NCBI RefSeq assembly: GCF_002572525.1
Contig: NZ_PDBS01000008.1
Span: 310,001 to 374,000 of the forward strand
DNA length: 64,000 bases
Source of the DNA: Natrinema sp. CBA1119
GTDB lineage: Archaea > Halobacteriota > Halobacteria > Halobacteriales > Natrialbaceae
Direction: 5' to 3'
Positions within the stretch are counted from its first letter, which is position 1; the number at the start of each line of letters is the position of its first letter. Under the pieces are notes generated by a model, which saw only the letters and a program-made list of their open reading frames with translations, was not told the DNA's origin and ran no database searches. Of the stretch, positions 48,597 to 63,143 are shown piece by piece. Position numbers and translations under genes: made by a program.

Positions 48597-49043
48597 CGTC
48601 GGCAGTCGTTGGAACGGTCACGCCGTCGTCAAGGCGCTGGACGGCCGTCGTGACAGCACAGTTCGGGTTCGCTAACGGGAACTGGAAGACGAACGTGCGG
48701 CCCAGCGGGTTCCGGCCCCGAGTGAACAGTTTTCTTGTTCATGAACCGGTACCCAGTTCGATCGGGACTACAGCTCTCTGCTGTCGGAGAAGCTTCGACG
48801 AGAAACGTGAATACGCCTCGAGCGGTATCTGACACTGACGGTCGGTGAACTGCTCGCGGGCGTCGCGCTGGGCGGGTCCCGGGCAGAGTGCTCGATCGCG
48901 TCGAGAGACGTGAAAGAGTGGCCCACCAGCACCAGGTCGACAACGAACACGACTACGGTGCCGACGATTTGCTGGGTCAGCAAATCGTCAGCGTTGTTTT
49001 GCCGTCTCCCGGGTTGGATTATAGTACGCTACTTTCACGAGCC
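48597..49043. other. Intergenic stretch with promoter and operator-like palindrome
   Basis: 447 bp without a gene I can support. Its right end carries the palindrome at 48964-48988 and a TATA-like GATTATAG at about 49018 in front of the carbamoyltransferase. The rest shows only shadow frames. Confidence 0.5.
48964..48988. promoter_or_regulatory. Operator-like palindrome, copy 1 (perfect 11-3-11)
   Basis: ACGATTTGCTG-GGT-CAGCAAATCGT, a perfect inverted repeat, ends 55 bp before the ATG of the carbamoyltransferase and about 30 bp before its TATA-like element. The same core occurs before two other genes in this region, so it looks like the binding site of a dimeric regulator. Confidence 0.65.
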
Positions 49044-50828
49044 ATGACTGACTATCAACTCGCGTTCAAACCGGCGATCGGGCTCTACGGCCAGCACGAC
49101 CCGAGCGCCGTTCTCTTCGATGACGGGACGCCCGTCTTCGGCGTCGAGGAAGAGCGATACACGCGGGACAAACACGCGACAGAGACGTTTCCCGAACACG
49201 CGATTCGGGCGTGTCTCGACCATCGAAACCTGTCCCTTCCGGACCTGGATCGTATCTTTCTTCCATACGAGCCGCAGCTCCGTGGCAAGATCGCTTCACA
49301 CTATGTCTCTGATGCGATCCGAGCGCCCGGAGTCGGACGAAAACTCACTGCACTCGAGGAGACGCTCATCACGCAGGTTCGGAGTCGGTTCGTCCCGACC
49401 CGACAGATCGAGAACCGCCTCGAGTCGATCGACTCGTCGGTGCCGCCGATCGAAACGATTTCACATCACCGCTGTCACGCCGCGAGCGCGTTCCACCCGT
49501 CGGGGTTCGACGAGGGCGTCGTCCTCACGGTCGACGCGAAGGGCGAGTACGACTCGACGGCCGTCTGGCGCGGCGACGAGGACGGCCTGACGCGCGCGTA
49601 CACCTACGAACACCCGAACAGTCTCGGTCTCTTCTTCGCGGTCGTGACCGAGTTCCTCGGCTACCGGATGTTCAACGGCGAGGGGAAAGTGATGGGACTG
49701 GCACCCTACGGCGAGGACAATCCGGAGATAGAGGGCGTCCTACGCGAGTTAATCGACACGGGCGCCGACTACGACGTCACCGAGCTGACGAAGCGCTGGG
49801 GGACCGGCCACGGCGTCAAAATCCTCGAGGACGCGTTCGACCGGTCGCGAACGGAGACGCCCGGCGAGTTCGACCAGTGGGAGCAAGACCTCGCACACAC
49901 CGCCCAGAAACTGCTCGAGGAAACGGTGGTGGGTATCGCGGAAACGGCCATCGACCAGTTGGACACGGCGAACGTCGCGATCGCCGGTGGCGTCGCGCTG
50001 AACTGCAAGTTGAACAAGTGCATCCGCGAGTCGCCACACGTCGACGACGTCTTCGTCCAGCCGGTCGCGAACGACGCCGGGCTCGCGCTCGGTGCGGGCT
50101 GGTCCCAGCAGCCGCCGTTGGCTGTCGACCACCAGACGGACGTCTACCTTGGTCCCGAGTACGACACCGAGGAGATCCACTCGACCCTCGAAACGAACAA
50201 ACTCGAGTACAGAGAACCGGACGACCTCGAGCGGTACGTCGCCGAACGGCTCGCCGACGGCGACCTCGTCGGCTGGTTCCAGGGACGGCTGGAGCTAGGG
50301 CCGCGAGCGCTCGGTGCCAGGAGCATCCTCGCTGACCCCCGCACCGCCGCGTCTCGCGACCGGGTCAACCGGTTCGTCAAACACCGTGAGGAGTGGCGGC
50401 CGTTCGCGCCGTCGATGCTCGAGTCGGCCGCCGAGGAATACCTCATCGGTGGCGGTTCGGCACCGTTCATGATCGATGCCTACGATATCCGGCCCGAGCG
50501 AACCGACGAACTCGAGGCCGTCTTGCATCCGGCCGACGACTCGACGCGCCCCCAGACCGTTCGTGAGGACCAGCACCCGCGCTATCACCGGCTCATCTCC
50601 GAGTTCGCCGACATCACGGGCGTACCGGTCGTCCTCAACACCTCGTTCAACGATCACGCCGAACCGATCGTCCGGACGCCGACGCAGGCGATCAAGGACT
50701 TCTACGGGATGGGACTCGACGTGCTCGTCCTCGAGGACCTCGTAGTCGAAAAAGACGTGACGAAAACGGATCGGCGTTCGGAACTACCACTTCGTTCGGG
50801 AGGCGCGCCGAACCCGGTACAGCAGTAG
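49044..50828 (+). CDS. NodU/CmcH-family carbamoyltransferase (594 aa)
   Basis: The N-terminal domain has an ASKHA/Kae1-like fold with metal-binding SHHRCHAASAFHPSGF and adenylate-site sequence; the C-terminal YrdC-independent domain has LELGPRALGARSILADPR and VPVVLNTSFNDHAEPI. Enzymes of this family transfer a carbamoyl group from carbamoyl phosphate via carbamoyl-AMP to hydroxyl or other groups of sugars or secondary metabolites. Target unknown; no biosynthetic cluster surrounds it. Start at 49044; the palindrome 55 bp upstream suggests it shares control with the redox genes. Confidence 0.9.
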   Translation: MTDYQLAFKPAIGLYGQHDPSAVLFDDGTPVFGVEEERYTRDKHATETFPEHAIRACLDHRNLSLPDLDRIFLPYEPQLRGKIASHYVSDAIRAPGVGRKLTALEETLITQVRSRFVPTRQIENRLESIDSSVPPIETISHHRCHAASAFHPSGFDEGVVLTVDAKGEYDSTAVWRGDEDGLTRAYTYEHPNSLGLFFAVVTEFLGYRMFNGEGKVMGLAPYGEDNPEIEGVLRELIDTGADYDVTELTKRWGTGHGVKILEDAFDRSRTETPGEFDQWEQDLAHTAQKLLEETVVGIAETAIDQLDTANVAIAGGVALNCKLNKCIRESPHVDDVFVQPVANDAGLALGAGWSQQPPLAVDHQTDVYLGPEYDTEEIHSTLETNKLEYREPDDLERYVAERLADGDLVGWFQGRLELGPRALGARSILADPRTAASRDRVNRFVKHREEWRPFAPSMLESAAEEYLIGGGSAPFMIDAYDIRPERTDELEAVLHPADDSTRPQTVREDQHPRYHRLISEFADITGVPVVLNTSFNDHAEPIVRTPTQAIKDFYGMGLDVLVLEDLVVEKDVTKTDRRSELPLRSGGAPNPVQQ

Positions 50829-50863: not shown

Positions 50864-51235
50864 TCAGTTCGCCGCGTGCGTCTCGAGTACGTCCACGAGC
50901 GTTTCACTGCTCTGGAACCCGTCGTCGAGACGGGCGACTTCCTCGCCGTCGCGCAGGACGACGAGCGTCGGGACGCTCTGGACGCCGAACTCGGCGGCGA
51001 GATCCGGGACGAGACCGGCGTTCACCGTCGCCACGACGCCGGGTGCGCTGCGCGCGACCCCGCTGAGCACCGGCTCCATCGACGCACAGATTCCACAGCC
51101 GGACGTAACGAACTCGAGCAAGACGAGGTCGTGTGCCGCGAGCAGGTCGTCGTAGTCGGCCATGTCGTGTAGCTGGACTGGTTTCTGGGTCGCGCGACCG
51201 TCGTCGGTCGGCTCCGAGGGTGTGGGTTCGGTCAT
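50864..51235 (-). CDS. Thioredoxin-like protein with CGIC motif (123 aa)
   Basis: From the ATG at 51235 (MTEPTPSEPTDDGRATQKPV), then a thioredoxin fold: LVLLEFVTSGCGICASMEPV with the redox pair C-G-I-C, and QSVPTLVVLRDGEEVARLDD with the cis-Pro. Cytoplasmic. It faces the carbamoyltransferase tail to tail. CAATACTATTG, a perfect 11-bp palindrome, lies upstream at about 51284-51294. Confidence 0.9.
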   Translation of the reverse strand: MTEPTPSEPTDDGRATQKPVQLHDMADYDDLLAAHDLVLLEFVTSGCGICASMEPVLSGVARSAPGVVATVNAGLVPDLAAEFGVQSVPTLVVLRDGEEVARLDDGFQSSETLVDVLETHAAN

Positions 51236-51567
51236 CGACACTGCTAGGGTCCGAACGCATTTCAGTGTTTTGTAGAAAATGCACAATACTATTGCACTCT
51301 CGGTCGATCGCTCTGCAGACGAGGACTTATGATGACCGTGTGCCGACGATCGGAACAGTGATGGCTAATGTTGCCTCTATTGACGACAGAGCTATTTCTA
51401 GAGTGTCCCTGGAAACAAGCTCGAGAAGGTCTAATTCGACGATTTTCCAGAGTACCGCTAACTCGGGCTTCGATAAATCTCGCCGAATCGCACAGTGGAA
51501 TACGGGTGGCCGACCGATGTCCTCGAAACGGCGATTTCGAGCGGTCGAGATGCGCCTTCGAACTAGT

Positions 51568-52491
51568 ATGAGTGCTCCCGAATCTACAGTCGACGTCGAA
51601 CAGTTCGTCACGAATCTCTTCGAGTTCCAGTACCGCGAGGTGACGATGGTCGGCGCGACGCTGACCGTCCTCGTCGCCTCGATCGTCTTCTTCCCGGGTT
51701 TCGAGAACGTCGGACAGGGTGTTCAGTCCGAACTTTCAGTCGGATTGCTCGCCGTACTGAGCCTGGTCGCGATCGTCGCTGGCATCGTCAAGGGGATGAC
51801 CGGCTTTGGCTACTCGCTCATCATGACACCGATCTTCGCGACGGTAGTCGATCCGACCGTCGCCGTCGTCGTCCTGGCAATTCCCCCGTGGATGCTCAAT
51901 ATGTTCCAGATCGCGGAAACCGGAACGGGGCGGTCGTTCGTTCGCGAAGAGTGGTCGCTCCTGTTGCTCGCCGTTATCGGGACCGTCATCGGCGTCGCAG
52001 CGCTGGCGACGTACAGCGCCGGACCGCTCGTCCCCTTCGCTATCGGTCTCGTTCTCCTCGGCTACGTCGTCTTTCAGGTCGTGCAGAACTTCGTGACGGT
52101 CGAGGAAGCACACCATCCCATCGCACTCGGCACGGCCGGGTTTTCCCAGGGCTTTCTGCTCGCTTTCGCGAATCTCGGGCCGTTGCTCCCGGCGTACTTT
52201 CACACCTTCGAGCGGGACGCCGAGCGATACATCGGCGGGTTGGCGATGGTTCTCGGAACGATATTCACGGTTCGTATCGTACAGATGGCGCTGTTCACCG
52301 ATCTCCTGACGACCTACCGGCTCTGGCTCGGGTCGATGATCGCCGTCGTCACGATCGTCGGCCTGCTACTGGGGACGTATCTCCGACGCCTCGAGTTCGA
52401 CGAGCGCGCGTTCAACTGGTTCGTCGTCGGACTCCTGTTCGTTATCTCGCTCAACATCTTCCGCAACTCCGTGCCAGCGCTGTTCTTCTAA
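51568..52491 (+). CDS. Second TauE/SafE-family permease (307 aa)
   Basis: About eight helices; the first repeat loop is VAGIVKGMTGFGYSLIMTPI, the second GTAGFSQGFLLAFANLGPLL. More distant from the first TauE copy than expected for a recent duplication. The N-terminal 20 residues are polar (MSAPESTVDVEQFVTNLFEF). The longer frame upstream of 51568 is AT-rich and not membrane-like, so the ATG at 51568 is preferred. Probable exporter of a sulfur anion or organic sulfonate. Confidence 0.9.
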   Translation: MSAPESTVDVEQFVTNLFEFQYREVTMVGATLTVLVASIVFFPGFENVGQGVQSELSVGLLAVLSLVAIVAGIVKGMTGFGYSLIMTPIFATVVDPTVAVVVLAIPPWMLNMFQIAETGTGRSFVREEWSLLLLAVIGTVIGVAALATYSAGPLVPFAIGLVLLGYVVFQVVQNFVTVEEAHHPIALGTAGFSQGFLLAFANLGPLLPAYFHTFERDAERYIGGLAMVLGTIFTVRIVQMALFTDLLTTYRLWLGSMIAVVTIVGLLLGTYLRRLEFDERAFNWFVVGLLFVISLNIFRNSVPALFF

Positions 52492-52847: not shown

Positions 52848-53513
52848 CTAATAGACAACGAGTGCCAGATAGAGCTGTCCAACCCCTGCCACGATCATCA
52901 GGCATCCGGCGAGTCGCTTCAGGTGCTCCGAATAGGCCGCGAACCGACCCGCACTCGCGACCAGCCCCATTCCGGTCGCGACCGTCACCGCAATCATCAG
53001 GGCGACTATGCTACCGACGTAGGTCAGCAGGACGAGCGCCGCCGCCTCGGTCGGCAGCGACAGCGAGCGGGCGACCACCGCGAGGAAGACGGGCGCGACG
53101 CAACCGGCCCCAGCGAGCGCGTAGCCCGCGCCGAAAAGCCCGAATCCGAAGACGCTCGAGCGCCGCTCCGGAAGCGGAATCGACAGCGAGGGGGCGCGAC
53201 CGGCGAGAACGAGTACGCCGAAGACCACCAGCAGTCCGCCGACGAGCGACTCGAAGATCGTCAGGTTCGATAGCGTCTGCTGGCCGATCACGAACGTCAC
53301 CCCGATGAGGGCCATGAGGGTTCCAAGAACGCCACTACCTGCGGCGATTCCCCGGATCGTTGCCCCACCGAGTGACGCATCGTCGCCGTCCGTTCGGCTG
53401 ACGTAGAACCCGACGTATCCCGGCAACAACGGATACGCACAGGGGCTAAAGAAGGTCGCGACGCCGGCAGTGAGCGCGAAGACGACCGTCGACAGAAGCG
53501 ATACGTCGATCAC
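52848..53513 (-). CDS. ccdA: CcdA-type thiol-disulfide transmembrane protein (221 aa)
   Basis: Six hydrophobic helices. The two buried Cys of the family are in FFSPCAYPLLPGYVGFY and LAGAGCVAPVFLAV. CcdA carries electrons from cytoplasmic thioredoxin across the membrane to extracellular TlpA-like proteins. A GTG start at 53513 overlaps the TGA of the TlpA-like gene (GTGA). The long in-frame upstream extension is antisense to that gene's end and is rejected. Confidence 0.88.
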   Translation of the reverse strand: MIDVSLLSTVVFALTAGVATFFSPCAYPLLPGYVGFYVSRTDGDDASLGGATIRGIAAGSGVLGTLMALIGVTFVIGQQTLSNLTIFESLVGGLLVVFGVLVLAGRAPSLSIPLPERRSSVFGFGLFGAGYALAGAGCVAPVFLAVVARSLSLPTEAAALVLLTYVGSIVALMIAVTVATGMGLVASAGRFAAYSEHLKRLAGCLMIVAGVGQLYLALVVY

Positions 53514-54097
53514 GCGTCCGTCCCTGCCTCGAGCGCCTGTTCGATCCCCGCCACGAGTTCGTCCGCCGTTTTGACGCCGGTGTCCGACCACTGAACGCGT
53601 CCGGACGTATCGATCGCGACGGCGGAGGGATAGCCACCCGCAAGATACCGTGCAGTCAGTTCCGCAGTCGGATCGAGACCGAGCGACCAGTTCCCGTCGT
53701 GTTTCTCCCACCAGTCGACCAGTTCCGCTTTCGTCACTGATCTGCCGATCGCTTCGCTCGTAATCGAGATGAACAGCACGTCGTCACCGATGCGATCGTT
53801 CGCCACCGCAAGTGCGGGCATCTGTTCGATACACGGCGGACACCACGTGCCGAAGAAATCGATGAACGTCGGTCGGTCGGACGCCGGAACACGGACCTCG
53901 CCGGCTTCGCTTCCCGGCGCATCGATCGTCTCGATCGTGAGCGGTTCGGTGTCCGGAGATCCCGTCCCATCCGAATTCCCGCTTTGGGCCTCGTCTGTTC
54001 CATCTCCGAACGACGGTGGACCGCGTATCGCCAGCGCCCCTGCGCCACCGATCGTACCCAGGCTGCCGACTCCGGCGAGGATATCTCGCCTGCGCAT
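53510..54097 (-). CDS. TlpA-like exported thioredoxin (195 aa)
   Basis: The Tat-type signal MRRRDILAGVGSLGTIGGAG is followed by an Asp/Ser/Thr-rich linker and a thioredoxin fold: FIDFFGTWCPPCIEQMPALA holds C-P-P-C; GYPSAVAIDTSG has the cis-Pro. Extracellular disulfide reductase that would receive electrons from CcdA and maturate copper or heme proteins. It lies between the Sco and CcdA genes with 1-bp and 4-bp junctions, so the three form one operon. Confidence 0.9.
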   Translation of the reverse strand: MRRRDILAGVGSLGTIGGAGALAIRGPPSFGDGTDEAQSGNSDGTGSPDTEPLTIETIDAPGSEAGEVRVPASDRPTFIDFFGTWCPPCIEQMPALAVANDRIGDDVLFISITSEAIGRSVTKAELVDWWEKHDGNWSLGLDPTAELTARYLAGGYPSAVAIDTSGRVQWSDTGVKTADELVAGIEQALEAGTDA

Positions 54098-54098
54098 C

Positions 54099-54821
54099 TT
54101 ACGCTTTCACCACCGTTTCGAGATCGGCGACTACCCGTGAAGTCTCGACCGTTGCACCTCGGGGATACGCTCGCTCGACGATCCCGTCTTCGTTCGCGAG
54201 CAAGATCAAATTATAGTGGGGGAACTGATACTCGAGCGAATCGTACTTCTCGGCATCGACCTTCTTGAGCGGCAACCCGATCCGGTCGGTCAAGATCTCT
54301 TTCGCCGTTTCGTACCGCTCCGGTCTGAGGAAGTCCCAGTTCCCGGCCTCGAGATCGACCCCCTGCTGGTCGGCGAACGTTCGAAGCGCGTCTTCCGTGT
54401 CACGTTCCGGATCGAACGTCATCGCGAGCAGTTGAACATCCTCACCGTACCCGTTGGCAGCGGCAACTTCCTGTGCACGACGGAGTCGTAGTATCAACGC
54501 GGGACACATCCCATCGGGACACGACGTATAAAAGAATGTCATCAAAACTGCCCGGCTGCTCTCGAATTGATTCGTCGAGACGGTTTCACCGGTCAGTTGG
54601 TTGGGGAGTTCGACCGACGGAACGTCGTCGCCGTAGCTCGGATGCGACGACTCGCTCAGATCTTGATTCGGTGGGCCGAGAACCGCTCCGTCGGCATGCT
54701 CCCGTTCACTACCGTCGCTGTCGTCTGCCTGCCCCTCGTTGCTCGAGAGGGAATCCAGACAGCCCGCTGTGGTAGCGACACTCGAGGCGGCGATCGATCG
54801 GAGCCAGAGACGCCGGTTCAT
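54099..54821 (-). CDS. SCO1/SenC-type copper-site assembly lipoprotein (240 aa)
   Basis: Start at 54821 (MNRRLWLRSIAASSVATTAG) with a Tat-like arginine pair and lipobox TAGC. Sco fold: VLMTFFYTSCPDGMCPALIL, with the two Cys four residues apart where the family usually has three, and the distal copper ligand His in FPHYNLILLANEDG. Sco proteins deliver copper to the Cu-A site of terminal oxidases or similar cupredoxins. First gene of the Sco-TlpA-CcdA operon. Confidence 0.88.
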   Translation of the reverse strand: MNRRLWLRSIAASSVATTAGCLDSLSSNEGQADDSDGSEREHADGAVLGPPNQDLSESSHPSYGDDVPSVELPNQLTGETVSTNQFESSRAVLMTFFYTSCPDGMCPALILRLRRAQEVAAANGYGEDVQLLAMTFDPERDTEDALRTFADQQGVDLEAGNWDFLRPERYETAKEILTDRIGLPLKKVDAEKYDSLEYQFPHYNLILLANEDGIVERAYPRGATVETSRVVADLETVVKA

Positions 54822-54935
54822 ACGTCGACGTTTCGGTGGGAATCGTAAATCCAGTACGACGATTCCCCGAGTCGGAAAAAGGGACAGCGGCAAGGGTGAA
54901 CGAAGAGCGCGAATGTCGCTCGGGAAGGTGCGATA

Positions 54936-55199
54936 TCACTTCGTCAACGAAATGAGAACGAGCACCATCCCGCTCGAAACGATGGCCGCCTGCACGAGGG
55001 CGGCGGACGCGATCGTCGTCCCGAACACCTGGTAGATGAGCCCCTCGCAGATCGCGCCGGCGCCGATGAAGACGAACCCGCCGGAGACGTACAGCATCGG
55101 CGTCTGACCGCTGCGACGATAGCCGTGATACGCCAGATACGCGACGCCGAGACTCAGCACGAACGTGAACAGTTTGGCGATCACGAACGACGCTTCCAT
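54936..55199 (-). CDS. DUF7521-like small membrane protein (87 aa)
   Basis: Three transmembrane helices: MEASFVIAKLFTFVLSLGVA, YVSGGFVFIGAGAICEGLIY and AAIVSSGMVLVLISLTK. Its ATG overlaps the last base of the TGA of the HTH regulator (TGATG), so translation is coupled. The pairing of this family with an HTH protein is common in haloarchaea. Role unknown; perhaps a membrane sensor for the regulator. Confidence 0.75.
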   Translation of the reverse strand: MEASFVIAKLFTFVLSLGVAYLAYHGYRRSGQTPMLYVSGGFVFIGAGAICEGLIYQVFGTTIASAALVQAAIVSSGMVLVLISLTK

Positions 55200-55639
55200 C
55201 AGTCGTCACCCCGGAGATCGCTCCAGAGGGACGTGAAGTTGTCAGCGAGCTCGTCGCGCGTTTCCAGCGTCAGCGAGAGTTGGCCATCGGTGATATCGAC
55301 GTGGAGTTCCTCGAGCGACGTTTGGAACTCGCTTCGATGCGAGCCGTCCGTATCGACGGTGTTCCGCTCCTCGATGAGGTCGTGGTCCTGCAGCGTCGAC
55401 ACTCGCCGATAGATCGTCGTGAGCGAGGCGTTGCACTCCTCGCTGAGCGTTTTCGCGGTCTTCGGCCCGTGATCCGCGGCGAGGAGTATCTTCCGTGCGT
55501 ACTCGTCCGCGAGGATCTGGAAGATTTCCGCCGAATCCGAGGAGCCTCCGTGTTGCACACGATAGACCCCGTCGTTCAGTGCCAAATAGGCCACGATTCC
55601 CCGACTCAGCAAATCGTCGTCACTGTCTTGTACCCACAC
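55199..55639 (-). CDS. Winged-helix regulator of the HTH/DUF7521 pair (146 aa)
   Basis: The HTH covers about 40-100: QILADEYARKILLAADHGPK, TLSEECNASLTTIYRRVSTL and a wing with VDTDGSHRSEF. It lies upstream of DUF7521 and near the Sco-CcdA operon, and could be the regulator that reads the nearby palindromes. A GATT-N-CAGCAAATC half-site lies inside its own 5' coding end (55596-55616). Confidence 0.82.
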   Translation of the reverse strand: MWVQDSDDDLLSRGIVAYLALNDGVYRVQHGGSSDSAEIFQILADEYARKILLAADHGPKTAKTLSEECNASLTTIYRRVSTLQDHDLIEERNTVDTDGSHRSEFQTSLEELHVDITDGQLSLTLETRDELADNFTSLWSDLRGDD

Positions 55640-55750: not shown

Positions 55751-56245
55751 TCACGGTGTGCAGGCCGGACACGACCGCCTATGGCGAGCGTAGATCAGTC
55801 CCGCCAGAATCGCCACGGAGAGCGCACCGAGGGCCGGTCGTAACGGATCGAAGTACGTCATAAGCGCGGACGAACTGAACAGGGCGAGCAGGGCGACGTT
55901 ACAGATCGGACAACCGACCGCCAGGAACCCGCCGACGAGACCGCCGAGCGCCCAGCGATCCTCGCTACTCGCACCGCCGGCCTCGCTCTCGTCGTCACCC
56001 TCGAGGTCGGGATCGACCACTTCGGTCGCCAGTCGCTGTGCCGCGTAGACGCCCGCCAGCAGCGCGGTCAACAGCAGAAACAGGTAGTCGACGGGCGTCC
56101 GCGGGACCATCCGAACGTACAGCGGGTTCGGAATGAGACCGGTGACGAGGCCGAACAGCAGGACCACGCCGATTCCGGCGGCCGTTCCCCACAGCATCGC
56201 TCGCCGATCCGATCGGATCGATCGGACGAAGTCGTGTGCCGTCAT
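55751..56245 (-). CDS. Membrane protein with GCPIC motif (164 aa)
   Basis: Four hydrophobic helices from the ATG at 56245 (MTAHDFVRSIRSDRRAMLWG). The third is preceded by FLAVGCPICNVALLALFSSS, in which C-P-I-C sits at a membrane face; the C-terminus has HRRSCPACTP, another C-P-A-C. Paired CxxC sites suggest thiol-disulfide or metal chemistry in the membrane. Its start overlaps the stop of the preceding gene (ATGA). No family name recognised; context points to the copper/thiol pathway. Confidence 0.78.
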   Translation of the reverse strand: MTAHDFVRSIRSDRRAMLWGTAAGIGVVLLFGLVTGLIPNPLYVRMVPRTPVDYLFLLLTALLAGVYAAQRLATEVVDPDLEGDDESEAGGASSEDRWALGGLVGGFLAVGCPICNVALLALFSSSALMTYFDPLRPALGALSVAILAGLIYARHRRSCPACTP

Positions 56246-56790
56246 TTCGTCGCCTCCGTCGTGATCACACAGTGTTCCGGATGGCCCGCACGTCCGAGGA
56301 AGAACACCAATAGGGCGAGCCCGCTGACGCGAAGCAACGCGCCGTCGTACGGGAGCACTGCCATCCCACCGGCGAACCCGAGAAAGCCGAGGAGGCCGGC
56401 ACCACAGCTCGCACAGCCCGACGCGAGGAGCCCCGGGACGATGCCGGAGAGATCGGTGAGACTCGAGAGACCAACGATCCGCAGTTGCGCAACGGCGTTG
56501 ACGACCGCGACACCTGAAAGCAGGGCGTAGAGGACGATGACCGCGAGCCCCGACCAGCCGTCGGTCCGGTAAACTGTCTCCGTGAGCGAGACGAGGACGT
56601 ACTCGAACCAGTGGAATCCGTCGCCGAGCATCTGGAGCGAGAATCCCGGCATCGTACTCAGGATCAGGAGAACGTAGGTGGCGACCGTCACGAGTACCAG
56701 TCCGATCGTCCCTCGCCACGTCTCGAACGGGTACGAGACCGCTGCAGCGAGGTTCGTCAGGTACCCGCTGATCGAATCGCGCGTGAACAT
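56242..56790 (-). CDS. Membrane protein with GCASC motif (182 aa)
   Basis: About five transmembrane helices. The motif PGLLASGCASCGAGLLGFLG, C-A-S-C, matches in position the GCPIC motif of the following gene, so the two proteins are probably distant homologues acting as a pair. Ends HPEHCVITTEATK. Start at 56790 (MFTRDSISGYLTNLAAAVSY). It lies divergent from the deacetylase-like gene, with a palindrome at 56832 between them, so one operator could serve both directions. Confidence 0.78.
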   Translation of the reverse strand: MFTRDSISGYLTNLAAAVSYPFETWRGTIGLVLVTVATYVLLILSTMPGFSLQMLGDGFHWFEYVLVSLTETVYRTDGWSGLAVIVLYALLSGVAVVNAVAQLRIVGLSSLTDLSGIVPGLLASGCASCGAGLLGFLGFAGGMAVLPYDGALLRVSGLALLVFFLGRAGHPEHCVITTEATK

Positions 56791-56908: not shown

Positions 56909-58789
56909 ATGAGTCATGAACGCGACGCAAACGAGGGGCCGTCTCGACGGCGAATGCTCGCCGCACTCGGTGCCGCATCGACGACGGTCGCTGGCTGTAT
57001 GGACATTCTATCGGACGACGACGGCAACGGAGTCGGCAGGGGCGAAATGTCGTCCGGCCCCACGCACTGGCCCGCTATCGAGACGGGGCAGGTAGTCTCT
57101 GACTTCGAGGATCTCGACGAGTGGTCCTCCCGAACTGGCAAACTCTCGGCCGCTTCCGACGAGGCGCGACTCGGATCCCAAGCGGCGGTCGTCGAAAGCG
57201 ACGAGGCGACGGCCGGCATGGAGGTTCGGTTCGACGACGGAATCGACTTCGAGGACTGGGACACCTCGCTGGCGGTCAAACCGGAATCCGCCGATCGGAT
57301 CATCGTCGAGTTCCTCGCACCGACGCGGAGCGAACGCCTCACCAGTATTCGAATCGTTCCGGACGGGTACGACGGCTGGTTCCGAATGGACTGTGGCTAC
57401 CAGCAGAAGCCGGGGGAAGACCCGGACCTGTCGAACGTCACCGGCCTCAATATCATCGCGGACGGGCCGGACGGCGGACCGACCAAATTGCTGGTCGACG
57501 ACCTTCGCCGAACCGAATCGGCCGCCAACGGTGCCGCAATCCTCGCGTTCTACGGCGGCCACGGTTCGCATTACGACATCGCGGCCGAGATTCTCGAGGA
57601 GCGCGACTGGACCGCGGCGGTTCCGGTCAGCCCCGAGCAAATCGGAGCTGCCGGTCGGATGGGGCGCACCGAATTACGCGACCTCCGAGACCGCGGCTGG
57701 GACGTCTGTTCGCTCCCACAGGTGTCGACGCCCCTGCCGGAACAGTCCGAGGACCAGCAGCGACAGGTCCTCGAAGCTGCTCGAGACGCGCTCGCAGACG
57801 AGGGCTTCGAGGACGGATCGCGTCACCTGTTCGTTCCCGAGGACCGAATGGATGCAACGACCTACGACCTCGCGAGAGAGATTCACGAGTCAACGTTCCT
57901 GTACAACGCCGGAACGACGAGCGTGCCGCCGACCGAGATGCACATGATTCCGTTCATCTGGGGTCCCGCACTTCACACCGGTGTTCGCCGCCACACCAAC
58001 CTTTCCGATCAGTACAACCATCTCACCGTGGTGCGCGTTCCGCGGATCGTCGACGAAGAAGACATCGGTGTCAACGAAAATCGGATGTCACTCGACGACT
58101 TCGGACTGCTCCTCGATCACATCGAGCACCGCGGCCTCGACGTCATCACTCCCTCGGATCTGGTCGACGAGACGTTCGAGCGCGCCAACGGCACCGACGA
58201 AACCGAGAACAGAGAGCGACCGAGCGGAACGATTCTCGAGGCGGGCCAGTCCCACACGTTTGAGGGATCCGGCTCTGGCGACACCGCCACGTTCGACCTC
58301 GACGAGGGGATCCTCGTGGCGAACGTCTCCCACGACGGCGGGGAGATTGCTGTCGACGTGACGAAACCCGACGGTACCGGACGCAACGAGAATCTGCTGA
58401 CCACGTCCGGGAATGCCACCGGCGAATCGATCATGGCCGTCGACGACGACGCCTACAGACTCGAGGTCGACGCCGACAGCGCATGGTCGATCGACCTCTC
58501 ACAGCCGACGGTCGACAGCGATGAACTCGAGGACCTTCCGCTCGAGGCGACCGGGACGGGATCGGCGTTCGTCGGGCCGCTGTGGACCGAGGGCGGCATC
58601 AGGGTCGTCGCGACACACGATGGTGACGGCACGTTCATCGTCGACGGCTACGATGCGGACGGCAGTCGGGAGATACTCGTCCACCGGACCGGCGAGTTCG
58701 ATAACTCGCGGTCGTACAAGGCGGGCGGCCCCGTCTGGCTCAACGTCGAGGCCGACGGCGACTGGACGCTCGAGGTCGTGGACTCGTAG
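56909..58789 (+). CDS. Exported lipoprotein with degenerate polysaccharide-deacetylase domain (626 aa)
   Basis: N-terminal Tat-type signal and lipobox: SRRRMLAALGAASTTVAGC. Residues 45-200 form a beta-rich domain (EDLDEWSSRTGKLSAASDEA). Residues 205-430 resemble the NodB (polysaccharide deacetylase) barrel: AAILAFYGGHGSHYDIAAEI in place of the usual T-F-D-D-G, and later VITPSDLVDETFE. The two catalytic Asp of the family are absent at this place (FYGGHGS), so deacetylase activity is doubtful. The C-terminal 190 residues are another beta-sandwich. A surface sugar-binding role is a guess. It shares a promoter pattern with the DsbA-like gene that follows. Confidence 0.75.
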   Translation: MSHERDANEGPSRRRMLAALGAASTTVAGCMDILSDDDGNGVGRGEMSSGPTHWPAIETGQVVSDFEDLDEWSSRTGKLSAASDEARLGSQAAVVESDEATAGMEVRFDDGIDFEDWDTSLAVKPESADRIIVEFLAPTRSERLTSIRIVPDGYDGWFRMDCGYQQKPGEDPDLSNVTGLNIIADGPDGGPTKLLVDDLRRTESAANGAAILAFYGGHGSHYDIAAEILEERDWTAAVPVSPEQIGAAGRMGRTELRDLRDRGWDVCSLPQVSTPLPEQSEDQQRQVLEAARDALADEGFEDGSRHLFVPEDRMDATTYDLAREIHESTFLYNAGTTSVPPTEMHMIPFIWGPALHTGVRRHTNLSDQYNHLTVVRVPRIVDEEDIGVNENRMSLDDFGLLLDHIEHRGLDVITPSDLVDETFERANGTDETENRERPSGTILEAGQSHTFEGSGSGDTATFDLDEGILVANVSHDGGEIAVDVTKPDGTGRNENLLTTSGNATGESIMAVDDDAYRLEVDADSAWSIDLSQPTVDSDELEDLPLEATGTGSAFVGPLWTEGGIRVVATHDGDGTFIVDGYDADGSREILVHRTGEFDNSRSYKAGGPVWLNVEADGDWTLEVVDS

Positions 58790-58941: not shown

Positions 58942-58989
58942 GGCGGATCCGTTTAGGGCGGGTAGCGTAAACGTGAGCGCGAACAATCG

Positions 58990-59716
58990 ATGTCGCTCGA
59001 TCAGCCGTCTCGTCGCGCTCTCGTTACAGGTCTCGTTGGAACTCTCGGCGTCGGCGGCGCTTACTTATCTCACGCGATCCGACGACACCGCTCACGACCT
59101 CTCCCCGTCGTTTCACTCGAGCGACGAGACGTCCCCACTCGGCGTCGAATTGCGGGGAAAGCCGATTATGGGTGCGTCCGATGCATCGCTCGATATCTAC
59201 TACTGGACGGACTTCCAGTGTCCGTTCTGCGAACAGTTCGAACGGGAGACGCTCCCCGACCTCGTTCGAGAGTACGTCGAACAGGGGACGGTTCGAATCA
59301 TATTCATCTCACTGCCGTACTTCGGTGCGGACTCGATGACGGCCGCGATCGCCGGCAAGTGCGTGTGGGACCAAGTTCGTGACGCCGACCCATCGACGTA
59401 CTGGGACTGGCACGCGGCGATCTTCGAGGAACAGGGCGAGAAGAACTCCGGCTGGGCTACAGCCGAGAACCTCCTCGAGTACACGCGCTCGGTCGACGGC
59501 GTCGACGCCGACTCGCTCGAGTCGTGTCTCGACGATCGATGGTCGGCGCTCGAAGACGAGATCGACGCGGATAACGAGCAAGCACGTTCGTTTGGCGTTC
59601 GGGGGACGCCGACGTTCGCTGTCTTCGATCCGGACTCCGAATCCGTCGGGACGCTCGTCGGCGCACAGCCCATCGAGCGCTTCGATGAGGCGATCGAACG
59701 AATCGAAGACGCGTGA
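58990..59716 (+). pseudogene. DsbA-type exported thioredoxin, frameshift after the signal peptide
   Basis: ATG at 58990 gives a typical Tat signal (SRRALVTGLVGTLGVGGAYL); the mature domain is in the next frame (SLDIYYWTDFQCPFCEQFER with C-P-F-C, and FGVRGTPTFAVFDPDS with the cis-Pro). The frames meet between about 59060 and 59085, where removing one base restores a protein of about 242 residues. A GTG at 58973 in the second frame would give a weaker signal lacking twin Arg. DsbA-like proteins form disulfides in exported proteins. Real lesion or sequencing error. Confidence 0.75.
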
Positions 59717-59799: not shown

Positions 59800-61482
59800 T
59801 CACTCGTATTCGAACACGCGTGCCATCCCTCGCTCGAGGTGATAGACGTTGTGACAGTGGAACAGCCAGTCGCCGGGGTTGTCCGCCAGGAAGTCGAACG
59901 TCACCTGATCGCCGCGGGGCGCGACGAGGACGGTGTCCTTGACCGCGTCGCCGACCTGAAAGAAGTGGCCGTGGAGGTGCATCGGGTGGATCGCCGGGCT
60001 GCGGTTCACCATCTGCACGCGGACGTGGTCGCCCTCGCTGATCTCGAACGGGTCGGCGTCGGGATACGTCTCGCCGTCGATGGTCCACGCGTCGGCGTCG
60101 GCGCTGCCCATCATCCCGCCCGACAGCGTGAGGTCGAACGTTCGATCCGGCTCCCCGTCGAGATCCAGCGGCTCGAGCGCCTCGAGATCCTCGTACTCGA
60201 GTTCGTCGCCGTCGAACTGCGGCCGGTCGACAGAGCCGTCGGCGGCGGCGTCTGCGTACCGCAGTCTCGCCTCCGCGGGGTCCTCTTCGCCGACGACGGG
60301 TTCGGCGACGACGGCCCACTCGCCGGGGGCGTCGGCCTCGAGGATCGCGTCGTAGCGCTCGCCCATGCTCATCACGAACGAATCCACCTCGACGGGTTCG
60401 ACCGGTCGCCCGTCGGCGTGCGTGACGGTCAGCGAGTGGCCGCCGACCCCGACGCGATAGGTCGTGGCGCTGCTGGGGTTGATGAACCGCAGCCGAACGC
60501 GCTCGCCCTCTTCGACTTCGAATACGGCCGGATCCGAGGGGAGGCGGCCGTTGACAAGCAGTCCCTCGTACGGGGGTCGCTGACCCATCATCTGACTGCC
60601 CGGTCCCATGCCGTCGCCGGGCCCGGGACCGTCGCCAGGTCCGCCGTCACTGCCGGGACTCATGCCGTCGTCAGGACCCATTCCGTTACCCGGTCCCATT
60701 CCGTTGCCGTCTCTACCCGGTCCCATTCCATCGTTCGGTCCGCGACCGTCACCGCGTCCGTCGCTATCGGGCCCCATCCCGTCGCCGTCTCCGCCTGGCC
60801 CGCCATCGGGCCCCATCCCGTCGCCATCTCCGCCTGGCCCGCCATCGGGGCCCATGCCACCGCCGCCCGGCGGGGCTTCGATCGAGTCGAGCGCCGGCTC
60901 CTCCCCGAGGTAGTCGTCGAGCTGCAACGTGTACTCGCGGTCGTACTCGACGTGGGTCGACTCCTCTTCGACGATCAGCGGTCCGTAGAGTCCCCTGTCG
61001 AGTTGTAACCCGACGTGGCTGTGGTAAACGTACGTGCCCGCCGGCGACGCCTCGTACTCGTACTCGAACGTCTCGCCGGACGAGACGGGCGCTTGCGTGA
61101 CGTCCGGAACGCCGTCCATCGGGTTCGGTACGGGAACGCCGTGCCAGTGGATCGTCGTCCCCTCGGACAACCCGTTCTCGAGCGAGATGCGGAGCGTCTC
61201 TCCTTCGCCGACCCGGAGCTCCGGTCCGGGGAACTGCTCCTCGTACAGCCACGTCTCGACGCTCTCGTCCGCTCCGACGTCGACTTCCCCGCTCGAGGCG
61301 ACCAGCGTTTCTTCGAGTCCGCCGTCGTCTCCGGTCCCGCCGTCCTCGTCCCCCTGTGCGGTCCGCTCGAGTGCGGCCGCTCCGATTCCGATCCCGTTCG
61401 GTAGTCCCGCGATTCCGAACAGCGTCGCACCGCCGATGCGTAGCGCCTGCCGTCGTGGGACGGTTCGATCAGTATCGTCCAT
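59800..61482 (-). CDS. Multicopper oxidase with Gly/Asp/Met-rich insertion (560 aa)
   Basis: Tat signal RTVPRRQALRIGGATLFGIA, start at 61482. Copper motifs: IHWHG (111-115), HSH (154-156), HPMHLHGHF (499-507), and HCHNVYHLERGM (542-553), which supplies the T1 Cys/His and an axial Met. Residues 205-300 are a low-complexity insert built from units like DGMGPDGGPGG, with several Met (GMGP, SQMMGQ), recalling Met-rich copper-binding inserts of CueO-like enzymes. Likely cuprous oxidase or laccase on the cell surface, in keeping with the Sco and TlpA genes. Confidence 0.93.
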   Translation of the reverse strand: MDDTDRTVPRRQALRIGGATLFGIAGLPNGIGIGAAALERTAQGDEDGGTGDDGGLEETLVASSGEVDVGADESVETWLYEEQFPGPELRVGEGETLRISLENGLSEGTTIHWHGVPVPNPMDGVPDVTQAPVSSGETFEYEYEASPAGTYVYHSHVGLQLDRGLYGPLIVEEESTHVEYDREYTLQLDDYLGEEPALDSIEAPPGGGGMGPDGGPGGDGDGMGPDGGPGGDGDGMGPDSDGRGDGRGPNDGMGPGRDGNGMGPGNGMGPDDGMSPGSDGGPGDGPGPGDGMGPGSQMMGQRPPYEGLLVNGRLPSDPAVFEVEEGERVRLRFINPSSATTYRVGVGGHSLTVTHADGRPVEPVEVDSFVMSMGERYDAILEADAPGEWAVVAEPVVGEEDPAEARLRYADAAADGSVDRPQFDGDELEYEDLEALEPLDLDGEPDRTFDLTLSGGMMGSADADAWTIDGETYPDADPFEISEGDHVRVQMVNRSPAIHPMHLHGHFFQVGDAVKDTVLVAPRGDQVTFDFLADNPGDWLFHCHNVYHLERGMARVFEYE

Positions 61483-61605
61483 CACAGAACCGCCCACAAC
61501 TGCCGGGAAAAAGGAAGGGCATGCCAGCGCGCGCTCTTCTCGATTCGCGTCCGAGAAACGTGACCTCGGGGCTGGAAACCGCGTTCGAACGAGTCGCCGG
61601 CGTTC

Positions 61606-62166
61606 TCACTCGAGCACCGCGATCAGCAGGAAGGTCTCCGGTCGGACGGCCTCGTGTTCGATGGCGAACCCGACCTCGCGGAGGGCGTCCGCCGCCTCGT
61701 CGGCGCTGTAGCGCTCGTCGACCGGCGGCCCGTTCTCGCCGGTTCCGGTGGCCGCCCAGTCGACGACGACGAGCCGACCGGCGGGCGCGAGGACCCGCCG
61801 AATCTCGGCCAGCGACTCCGCGCTCGCGAACTCGTGGTAGGTCATCGTCGAGAACGCAGCGTCGACGCCGCCGTCGTCGAACGGCAGGTCGCTTACGTCG
61901 CTGGTCACGAGATCGACGTTCTCCGGGATACCCTTCTCTCGGTAGTAATCCTGCATCTCCTCCTGGACGTCGACTGCGTAGACCTCGCCGGCGTACGGGG
62001 CGACGTCGTCGGTGAAGAAGCCGGTCCCGCTGCCGAGGTCGGCGACGGTGTCGTCCGGTGAGAGCGAAAGCGCCCACAGTAGTTCCTCGGCCGAGAGGAA
62101 GCGATATCGCTTCCCGGCCTCCTCTAACTTGTCAGCCCGCGACGCGTCGAAGGTGTGGTATCCCAT
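61606..62166 (-). CDS. Class I SAM-dependent methyltransferase (186 aa)
   Basis: Motif I is TVADLGSGTGFFTDDVAPYA; motif II region EVYAVDVQEEMQDYY; post-motif DLPFDDGGVDAAFSTM. It resembles UbiE/COQ5-like enzymes. The start MGYHTFDASRADKLEEAGKR recalls methyltransferases found with thiol/metal detoxification genes in haloarchaea. Its stop is 107 bp from the multicopper oxidase, and a DUF302 gene starts upstream on the same strand with a 2-bp gap, so these two are co-transcribed. Confidence 0.9.
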   Translation of the reverse strand: MGYHTFDASRADKLEEAGKRYRFLSAEELLWALSLSPDDTVADLGSGTGFFTDDVAPYAGEVYAVDVQEEMQDYYREKGIPENVDLVTSDVSDLPFDDGGVDAAFSTMTYHEFASAESLAEIRRVLAPAGRLVVVDWAATGTGENGPPVDERYSADEAADALREVGFAIEHEAVRPETFLLIAVLE

Positions 62167-62168
62167 GG

Positions 62169-62609
62169 TTACAGATTCTCGAACGCAGTATCGACCAGTT
62201 CGCCCGTCTCCGCCACGATGTCTGCCATCTCGTCGTCGTCCGGTGCCATTCCGACAAGTCGCGCGATCCGCATGATCGAAACGTGGTAGATGCGCTGTCG
62301 ACCGGGTTCTTCCTCCCAGACGACGACGTTACATGGGAACAGCGCGCCGAGTTTACCGTCGGTCGCCTCGAGTGCCCGGTCGGCCACCGTCGGGTTACAC
62401 GCGCCGAGCACGTAGTAGGGGTCGCGGTCGGCATTGACCTTTTCGTTGAGCAGTTCCGACGGGGAGAACTCGACGGGAATGCCGAACCCCGCGTCGGTGA
62501 ACACCTCACGAACGTGTTCGATGGCGTCCTCGTGGTCCATCTCGAGCGTCGTCTGTTTCCCACCGATGTCGTCCGGATCGATCCGGGTGGGGTCGATTGG
62601 CAGCGTCAT
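62169..62609 (-). CDS. DUF302-family protein (146 aa)
   Basis: Start at 62609 (MTLPIDPTRIDPDDIGGKQT). The DUF302 fold is shown by HEDAIEHVREVFTDAGFGIP, PYYVLGACNPTVADRALEAT and ALFPCNVVVWEE. One Cys lies in each of the last two. These proteins appear in sulfur oxidation and redox clusters; a small-molecule-binding role is likely. Operon with the methyltransferase. Confidence 0.9.
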   Translation of the reverse strand: MTLPIDPTRIDPDDIGGKQTTLEMDHEDAIEHVREVFTDAGFGIPVEFSPSELLNEKVNADRDPYYVLGACNPTVADRALEATDGKLGALFPCNVVVWEEEPGRQRIYHVSIMRIARLVGMAPDDDEMADIVAETGELVDTAFENL

Positions 62610-62876
62610 TCGTGGAGAGTATTGGGCCCACCACAAAAATCAGTTCTGGATTTTACCGTCGACCGCTACGAGATCGCCACCGACTCGTGGAAGTACATCA
62701 CCGAACGCTGCGCCAGCGAAGACCGGGAAACGAATCGCGTGCAAGAGCCTCCTGCATTGTTCGACACGAGAATGGGAACGTCGCGGGTGGGATCGACGAG
62801 CGGTCAGTTCGAGACCGCAATCGCTGACTCGGAAAATCGGCCGAACGCATATTACCTTCTGCCTGCAAGTTCACGT

Positions 62877-63143
62877 ATGGGTTCGGACGTCTCCAGTCAA
62901 TCGCTGCTCGGGCTGGCAGGGCTCGCGAGTCTCTGTTGTGTCGGACCGGGGACCGCCGCCATCGCCGGCGGAACGTCAGTCGGGATGATCGTTGGGATCG
63001 CACAGGGTGTGGTGATCTTCGCAGTGCTCGGTATCATCGGGCTCCTGATCCGACTTCACTCGAGTTGCTCGTGTTCGGCCCGTAACGCTGACCGGGAGAC
63101 GCAGCGATCCGCGGGCGTGAAGCGAAACGCGGACCTCGAGTGA
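62877..63143 (+). CDS. Small Cys-rich membrane protein (88 aa)
   Basis: From the ATG at 62877 (MGSDVSSQSLLGLAGLASLC). Two helices, the first with SLCCVGPGTAAIAGG, the second ending RLHSSCSCSARNAD. Vicinal Cys in a helix next to G-P recall mercury or copper transport proteins, but no family is assigned. It lies divergent from the DUF302 gene. Confidence 0.6.
   Translation: MGSDVSSQSLLGLAGLASLCCVGPGTAAIAGGTSVGMIVGIAQGVVIFAVLGIIGLLIRLHSSCSCSARNADRETQRSAGVKRNADLE

Follow-up and report, generated by a model that had tools for sequence, protein, structure and literature searches.

A family of paired, cysteine-containing membrane proteins accompanying a DsbA-like thioredoxin in haloarchaea, with a possible role in thiol exchange

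The locus considered here raises the question of what two small membrane proteins with matching cysteine motifs may do in a haloarchaeon, and together with which partner. Their genes lie in a stretch of 64,000 nucleotides of Natrinema sp. CBA1119 (contig NZ_PDBS01000008.1, positions 310,001 to 374,000), which we call the window and in which all coordinates are counted from its first letter. The most constant facts found in our analysis are the cysteines of these proteins and the presence of an exported DsbA-like thioredoxin as their partner.

Two membrane proteins and their cysteines

The gene of P2 occupies positions 56242-56790 of the minus strand, and encodes a 182-aa four-helix membrane protein with GCASC at residues 125-129 in TM3 and C174 after TM4. 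On the same strand, P1 (55751-56245) is a four-helix membrane protein of 164 aa, with GCPIC at residues 111-115 in TM3 and CPAC at its C-terminus (residues 159-162). The two genes overlap by the sequence ATGA, shared by the ATG of P1 and the TGA of P2. The first-pass annotation of this DNA had described two overlapping genes whose products have GCASC and GCPIC in corresponding positions, and a CPAC at the end of one of them, and all this was confirmed; the profile alignment sets GCxxC on GCxxC, and C174 of P2 aligns with the tail cysteines of P1.

The same annotation had taken P1 and P2 for diverged relatives, and comparison of their profiles by hhalign agrees with this assumption, with matches of 95-96% and the cysteines in register. 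The P1 and P2 profiles matched at 95.2%, at 96.0% with bacterial P1 sequences added, and at 75% when only haloarchaeal P1 was used. Another explanation would be that P1 and P2 have no common origin, and that hydrophobic convergence around a CxxC has made two small membrane proteins look alike. Both the 75% obtained for haloarchaeal P1 alone and the match of the P2 profile to its own reverse (94.6%, probably because the GCAxCG motif is near-palindromic) speak in its favor. However, the P1-P2 match increases once the bacterial sequences are included, the P1 profiles match reversed P2 at 2.7% at most, and with the exception of P2 against its own reverse, no control comparison of the P1, P2 and MerT profiles (reversed profiles, CcdA, TauE, DUF7521) exceeded 4.1%. 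We consider convergence very improbable, and P1 and P2 appear, on the evidence of their sequences, to be two members of one undescribed membrane-protein family.

Profile searches assigned neither protein to a Pfam or NCBIfam family, and a search of PDB sequences gave no family either. A possible identity of P1 with complex I subunit C2 was rejected, since the match (E 0.022) is confined to a generic stretch of helix. No second copy of P1 or P2 was detected in their own genome at E <= 0.001. Searches of open-access PMC text on MerT-like families, haloarchaeal DsbA/DsbB, CcdA together with sulfur genes, and persulfide genes of haloarchaea brought up no description of the family.

The motif cysteines, which the first-pass annotation expected to recur in homologues of both proteins, do recur. 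Among haloarchaeal homologues found by BLAST, and counting residues that are present (gapped rows being left out), C126 and C129 of P2 are cysteines in 63 of 64 sequences each and C174 in 65 of 65; for P1, the respective numbers are 59/59 for C112 and C115, 54/57 for C159 and 54/54 for C162. The conserved cysteines were found in 57 of 57 sequences of a second P2 alignment, a count that is partly circular for C126 and C129, as the pattern of the source scan contained GCA[SA]C, and independent for C174, which lies outside that pattern. Of the 35 sequences in a larger P1 alignment, which includes three from bacteria, 31 retain C159 and 28 retain C162, and the tail cysteines are absent from four of its rows. 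When bacterial P1-like sequences were read by eye, GCPxCN was seen in 14/14 and a cysteine after TM4 in 13/14. The motifs of P1 and P2 are thus not there by chance.

Hydrophobicity analysis revealed four helices in P1 and five peaks in P2, two adjacent ones of which correspond to one helix when P2 is aligned with P1. The charges of the loops favor an N-in/C-in topology, from which we infer that GCxxC would lie in the middle of the membrane, with the cysteines of the tail on the cytosolic side, as described for MerT. The AlphaFold model of P1 is poor (pLDDT 60). That of P2 (pLDDT 76, pTM 0.71) is least reliable in the region of the motif (48-61 for blocks 111-150), and it gave no fold match, with a best Foldseek E of 0.95 and a best Z of 4.9.

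Among 242 genomes of the haloarchaeal class, P2 was found in 64 and P1 in 66; both occur in 49, P1 only in 17, P2 only in 15 and neither in 161, so that each is found without the other in some genomes, and because the genomes and loci are related by descent, Fisher values for this co-occurrence, as well as for the neighboring genes discussed below, overstate the evidence. In both collections searched, relatives of P2 were haloarchaeal only (29 plasmid records; 80 loci kept of 81). Those of P1 reach Actinobacteria, Thermomicrobium and one alphaproteobacterium (89 plasmid records obtained with an Arthrobacter query, haloarchaeal ones included), and in the searches made bacteria had only P1-like proteins, without P2. 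That the two proteins are halves of one heteromeric carrier, as the first-pass annotation proposed, is a conjecture which their separate occurrence does not favor.

Relation to the mercury carrier MerT

The profile of bacterial P1-like proteins matches that of MerT at 95.7% (P=8.8e-9, 63 columns), with the TM3-TM4 hairpin aligned to TM1-TM2 of MerT, the alignment of the latter consisting of six sequences only. With all P1 sequences together the match is 89%, with haloarchaeal P1 71%, and with P2 0.3%; a direct relation of P2 to MerT was therefore rejected, and its link to that protein leads only through P1. Independent support comes from curated models: that of Pfam for MerT matches five of ten bacterial P1-like proteins (E 0.005-3.2, the best at 17.3 bits against a cutoff of 32.9), and the NCBIfam model four of ten (best E 9.5e-5, best score 22.5 bits against a cutoff of 150), one protein from Arthrobacter (L143) giving 0.018 with NCBIfam MerT and 0.0015 with the MerTP fusion. 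All these matches fall on the same hairpin and all are below cutoff, while P1 and P2 of the window have no Pfam MerT match.

In MerT, Cys24/25 receive mercury from MerP and hand it on to Cys76/82 on the cytosolic side (PMC5715351). P1 and P2 share with it a helix hairpin having a mid-membrane cysteine pair in the first helix and a cytosolic cysteine after the second, and an exported two-cysteine partner, which is MerP for MerT and the DsbA-like protein for P1 and P2. For P1, the position of the pair in the middle of the first hairpin helix follows from the profile alignment and the conserved CPxC; a cysteine follows the second helix as well, its cytosolic side being suggested by charges. On the other hand, P1 and P2 differ from MerT in having two extra N-terminal helices and CxxC instead of CC, they fall below the MerT cutoffs, and they were not seen with mer genes. 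P1 is thus predicted to work like MerT, yet it is not classifiable as MerT because every match to the MerT models is below cutoff.

A direct role in mercury transport was rejected, as no mer context was seen around the loci. MerT (PF02411) exceeds its cutoff in 0 of 59 genomes, and no MerA or MerP family is prominent among the 34 commonest clusters of neighbors; a CoA-disulfide reductase encoded near P2 scores 127.5 against the MerA cutoff of 454. Nevertheless, the function of a thiol or soft-metal carrier, which the first-pass annotation had suggested, seems plausible precisely because the hairpin is related to that of MerT.

The DsbA-like partner and other neighbors

The survey of gene neighborhoods covered 80 P2 loci from genome contigs, 64 close and 16 distant, and 40 control stretches, two from each of 20 genomes at positions chosen by hand, mostly chromosomal and not plasmid-matched. 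A DsbA-like gene, sought with a single-sequence query, is present in 63 of the 64 close loci and in 35 of 35 genera, in 13 of the 16 distant loci and in one control. With a family profile it was found within 6 kb of P2 in 78 of the 80 loci, a few of these matches being weak or short, and in 38/80 it stands directly upstream of P2, not more than 300 bp away and in the same orientation. A P1 gene that is at most 150 bp from P2 and read in the same direction was found in 30/80 loci, and P1 is absent from 39/80 of the fetched stretches.

In the window, the DsbA-like thioredoxin (Thioredoxin_4/DSBA, CPFC) is encoded on the plus strand at 58973-59716. Its frame is broken; a Tat-like signal peptide (MSLDQPSRRA..., 58973-59130) is out of frame with the mature domain, relatives read through, and either a defect of the gene itself or an error in sequencing would account for this. 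The first-pass annotation missed this constant partner, perhaps because a gene of a 626-aa lipoprotein-like protein (56909-58789, plus strand) intervenes between P2 and DsbA. That protein, a homologue of which is annotated as polysaccharide deacetylase, has no Pfam match, and its gene is an optional neighbor, which occupies this place in some Natrialbaceae.

On the other side of the pair, the minus strand of the window encodes an HTH_20/ArsR-like regulator (55199-55639), the small membrane protein DUF7521 (54936-55199), Sco (SCO1-SenC, 54099-54893), a TlpA/ResA-like thioredoxin (Redoxin, 53510-54097), a CcdA-like protein of uncertain start (52848-53711; an 86% profile match to actinobacterial CcdA and no Pfam match above cutoff) and a thioredoxin (50864-51286), and the plus strand a TauE/SafE exporter (51133-52491). 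A multicopper oxidase is encoded beyond the DsbA-like gene (59800-61497, minus strand). In the 64 close loci, compared with the 40 controls, HTH_20 was found in 42 (0), DUF7521 in 43 (0), thioredoxin in 29 (1), CcdA-like protein in 20 (0), Sco in 15 (0) and TlpA in 12 (0). Sco and CcdA, as well as the surface protein, all of which the first-pass annotation had placed beside the pair, are only optional in the fetched stretches.

Sulfur genes (rhodanese-MBL, CoA-disulfide reductase, DUF302, TauE, DsrE) occur in 42 of the 64 close loci, representing 22 of 35 genera, and in 2 of 40 controls, and copper-type genes (multicopper oxidase, 4-helix Cu protein, P-ATPase and Sco, the last being the commonest) in 24/64 and 1/40, respectively. 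In the distant branch of P2 (L210-L225), which has a GCAACG-type motif and its own DsbA, copper-type neighbors are missing, and sulfur genes were present in only 1 of 16 loci, indicating that a sulfur cargo would not be general. An apparent fusion of DsbA and P2 in one of these loci (L210) was rejected, as the C-terminal half of DsbA is lost and the arrangement looks like a frame break.

Fifteen bacterial plasmid records were also examined, twelve of them chosen for variety among 60 matches listed of 89. A DsbA-like thioredoxin, CcdA and the P1-like protein are encoded side by side in seven (L142, L143, L232, L233, L237, L238 and L243), and this trio is absent from eight, among which the Rubrobacter (L141) and Rhodococcus (L236) records have copper-type neighbors in its place. 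Some bacterial P1-like genes adjoin those of P-type ATPases or HMA proteins. The haloarchaeal and bacterial DsbA-like proteins form one family (hhalign 100%), both matching NF041057 below its cutoff. Besides the trio, the Streptomyces record L233 contains CsoR-like, rhodanese and TauE genes, comparable to those of the PDO-TauE-rhodanese-CsoR circuit of sulfane sulfur tested in S. coelicolor (PMC7533328). The Arthrobacter locus of pA58H2 (L142), with DsbA-like thioredoxin, CcdA, DsrE and a BlaI/COG3682-type regulator in addition to the P1-like gene, is listed in print as a plasmid 'CYT' module, with two CcdA proteins; the available passages of that source note the module only as a sulfur/cytochrome gene cluster, and do not set the P1-like protein apart as a family (PMC6305408).

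A possible cysteine relay and its alternatives

P1 and P2 probably convey sulfur, electrons or a soft metal from one side of the membrane to the other. The reading we favor, with slightly less than even confidence, is that they constitute a cysteine relay of the MerT-hairpin type that serves the exported DsbA-like thioredoxin by a transmembrane exchange of sulfur bound to thiols or of disulfide equivalents. Each protein would provide four helices in an N-in/C-in arrangement, a GCxxC in the middle of TM3 and one or more cytoplasmic cysteines after TM4. As we infer the order, direction and cargo of the relay, the latter would be thiol-bound, with sulfane sulfur or disulfide/dithiol equivalents as the likeliest candidates, and would move between CPFC of DsbA, the GCxxC halfway through the membrane and the cysteines of the cytosolic tail, to be taken over by persulfide enzymes, rhodanese, DsrE or thioredoxin of the cytosol.

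A membrane cysteine relay like that proposed here is found in the YeeE/YedE importers (TsuA, SoxT1A), and their short forms, PmpA and PmpB, are paired four-helix halves; the SoxT1A gene adjoins that of a periplasmic DsbA-like thioredoxin, with rhodanese and DsrE genes downstream, and the authors of that study consider release of sulfur from DsbA and its import through membrane cysteines to rhodanese and DsrE (PMC11582611). The cysteine motif of P1 and P2 is different, and no match to the YeeE/YedE family was obtained for P1, P2 or ten bacterial relatives. It is this parallel, together with the constancy of the cysteines and of DsbA, that makes us place a relay of sulfane sulfur or disulfides first and Cu(I) second.

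According to the latter explanation, to which we give a minor though appreciable probability, P1 and P2 would transport a soft metal, with Cu(I) as the likeliest one, received from either Sco or the DsbA-like thioredoxin, in order to feed or protect cuproenzymes such as the multicopper oxidase or CuA oxidase. The relation to MerT, which takes Hg(II) from MerP, is consistent with such a function, as are Sco, TlpA, CcdA and the multicopper oxidase within the window, the excess of copper-type genes over the control, the P-ATPase, HMA and CsoR neighbors in bacteria, and the binding of Cu(I) reported for a ScsC protein (PMC8900818). However, P-ATPase (4/64 close loci vs 1/40) and the 4-helix Cu protein (4/64 vs 0/40) are not significantly enriched, sulfur genes are commoner, no mercuric reductase family is prominent among the recurring neighbors, and MerT above cutoff is lacking from the 59 genomes. 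Genes of DsbA and DsbB are often paired, and the near-invariant pair of P2 and DsbA genes, retained even in the distant branch, where sulfur genes are mostly lacking, could mean that P2 is a DsbB/VKOR-like oxidase or CcdA-like reductase which only re-oxidizes or re-reduces its DsbA-like partner, P1 doing likewise for another thioredoxin. We regard this as unlikely: neither protein matches a DsbB/VKOR family at E up to 1, P2 has three conserved cysteines (the TM3 pair and the C-terminal one) with no second extracellular pair, and the profiles of P1 and P2 match CcdA at 0.5% at most. In the Scs (suppressor of copper sensitivity) systems and in DsbD/CcdA-thioredoxin systems of the SoxVW type, an electron carrier of CcdA type accompanies exported thioredoxins resembling DsbA or TlpA; relative to them, P1 and P2 would be an extra membrane component, and, unlike in those systems, CcdA accompanies P2 in less than one third of the close loci fetched.

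Returning to the thiol relay, the common denominator may be exchange with DsbA, because the distant P2 branch is mostly devoid of sulfur genes, and the cargo may differ between the branches. A narrower version, in which P2-P1 would be an importer of sulfane sulfur (persulfide) belonging to a new class, with the exported DsbA-like protein loading a MerT-type hairpin that delivers to cytosolic rhodanese, DsrE or persulfide dioxygenase, we put forward only as a rather doubtful possibility. If it were true, mercury carriers would represent one branch of a wider family of thiol relays, extending from haloarchaea to Actinobacteria. An unnamed, widespread membrane family with conserved cysteines is in any case a near-constant companion of the exported DsbA-like thioredoxin in haloarchaea, and its relatives in Actinobacteria occur together with DsbA and CcdA. 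P1 and P2 would supply such thioredoxins with a membrane partner, would tie the architecture of a mercury carrier to the ordinary movement of sulfur or redox equivalents, and would make the crossing of prokaryotic membranes by sulfane sulfur or disulfide equivalents testable.

Several further genes recur in the vicinity of P2. A protein of 88 aa, made of two helices and having CC in the first of them and a cysteine on the C-terminal side, is encoded in the window at 62877-63143 (plus strand), and is MerF-like in appearance only. This undescribed protein of about 88 aa occurs in 25 of the 64 close P2 loci (17 genera) and in none of the 40 controls, often beside P1, with relatives such as L182:9497-9757 and L186:8991-9254; its inclusion as a third Mer-like member was rejected, the profile match being 27% to MerT and 23% to P1. 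Adjoining genes of a SAM methyltransferase (61606-62166) and a DUF302 protein (62169-62636, assigned because it resembles L149:4016-4456, a PF03625 match), both on the minus strand, recur in 24/64 and 15/64 close P2 loci, respectively. A carbamoyltransferase gene, located at 48888-50828 of the window, recurs near P2 in 11 loci.
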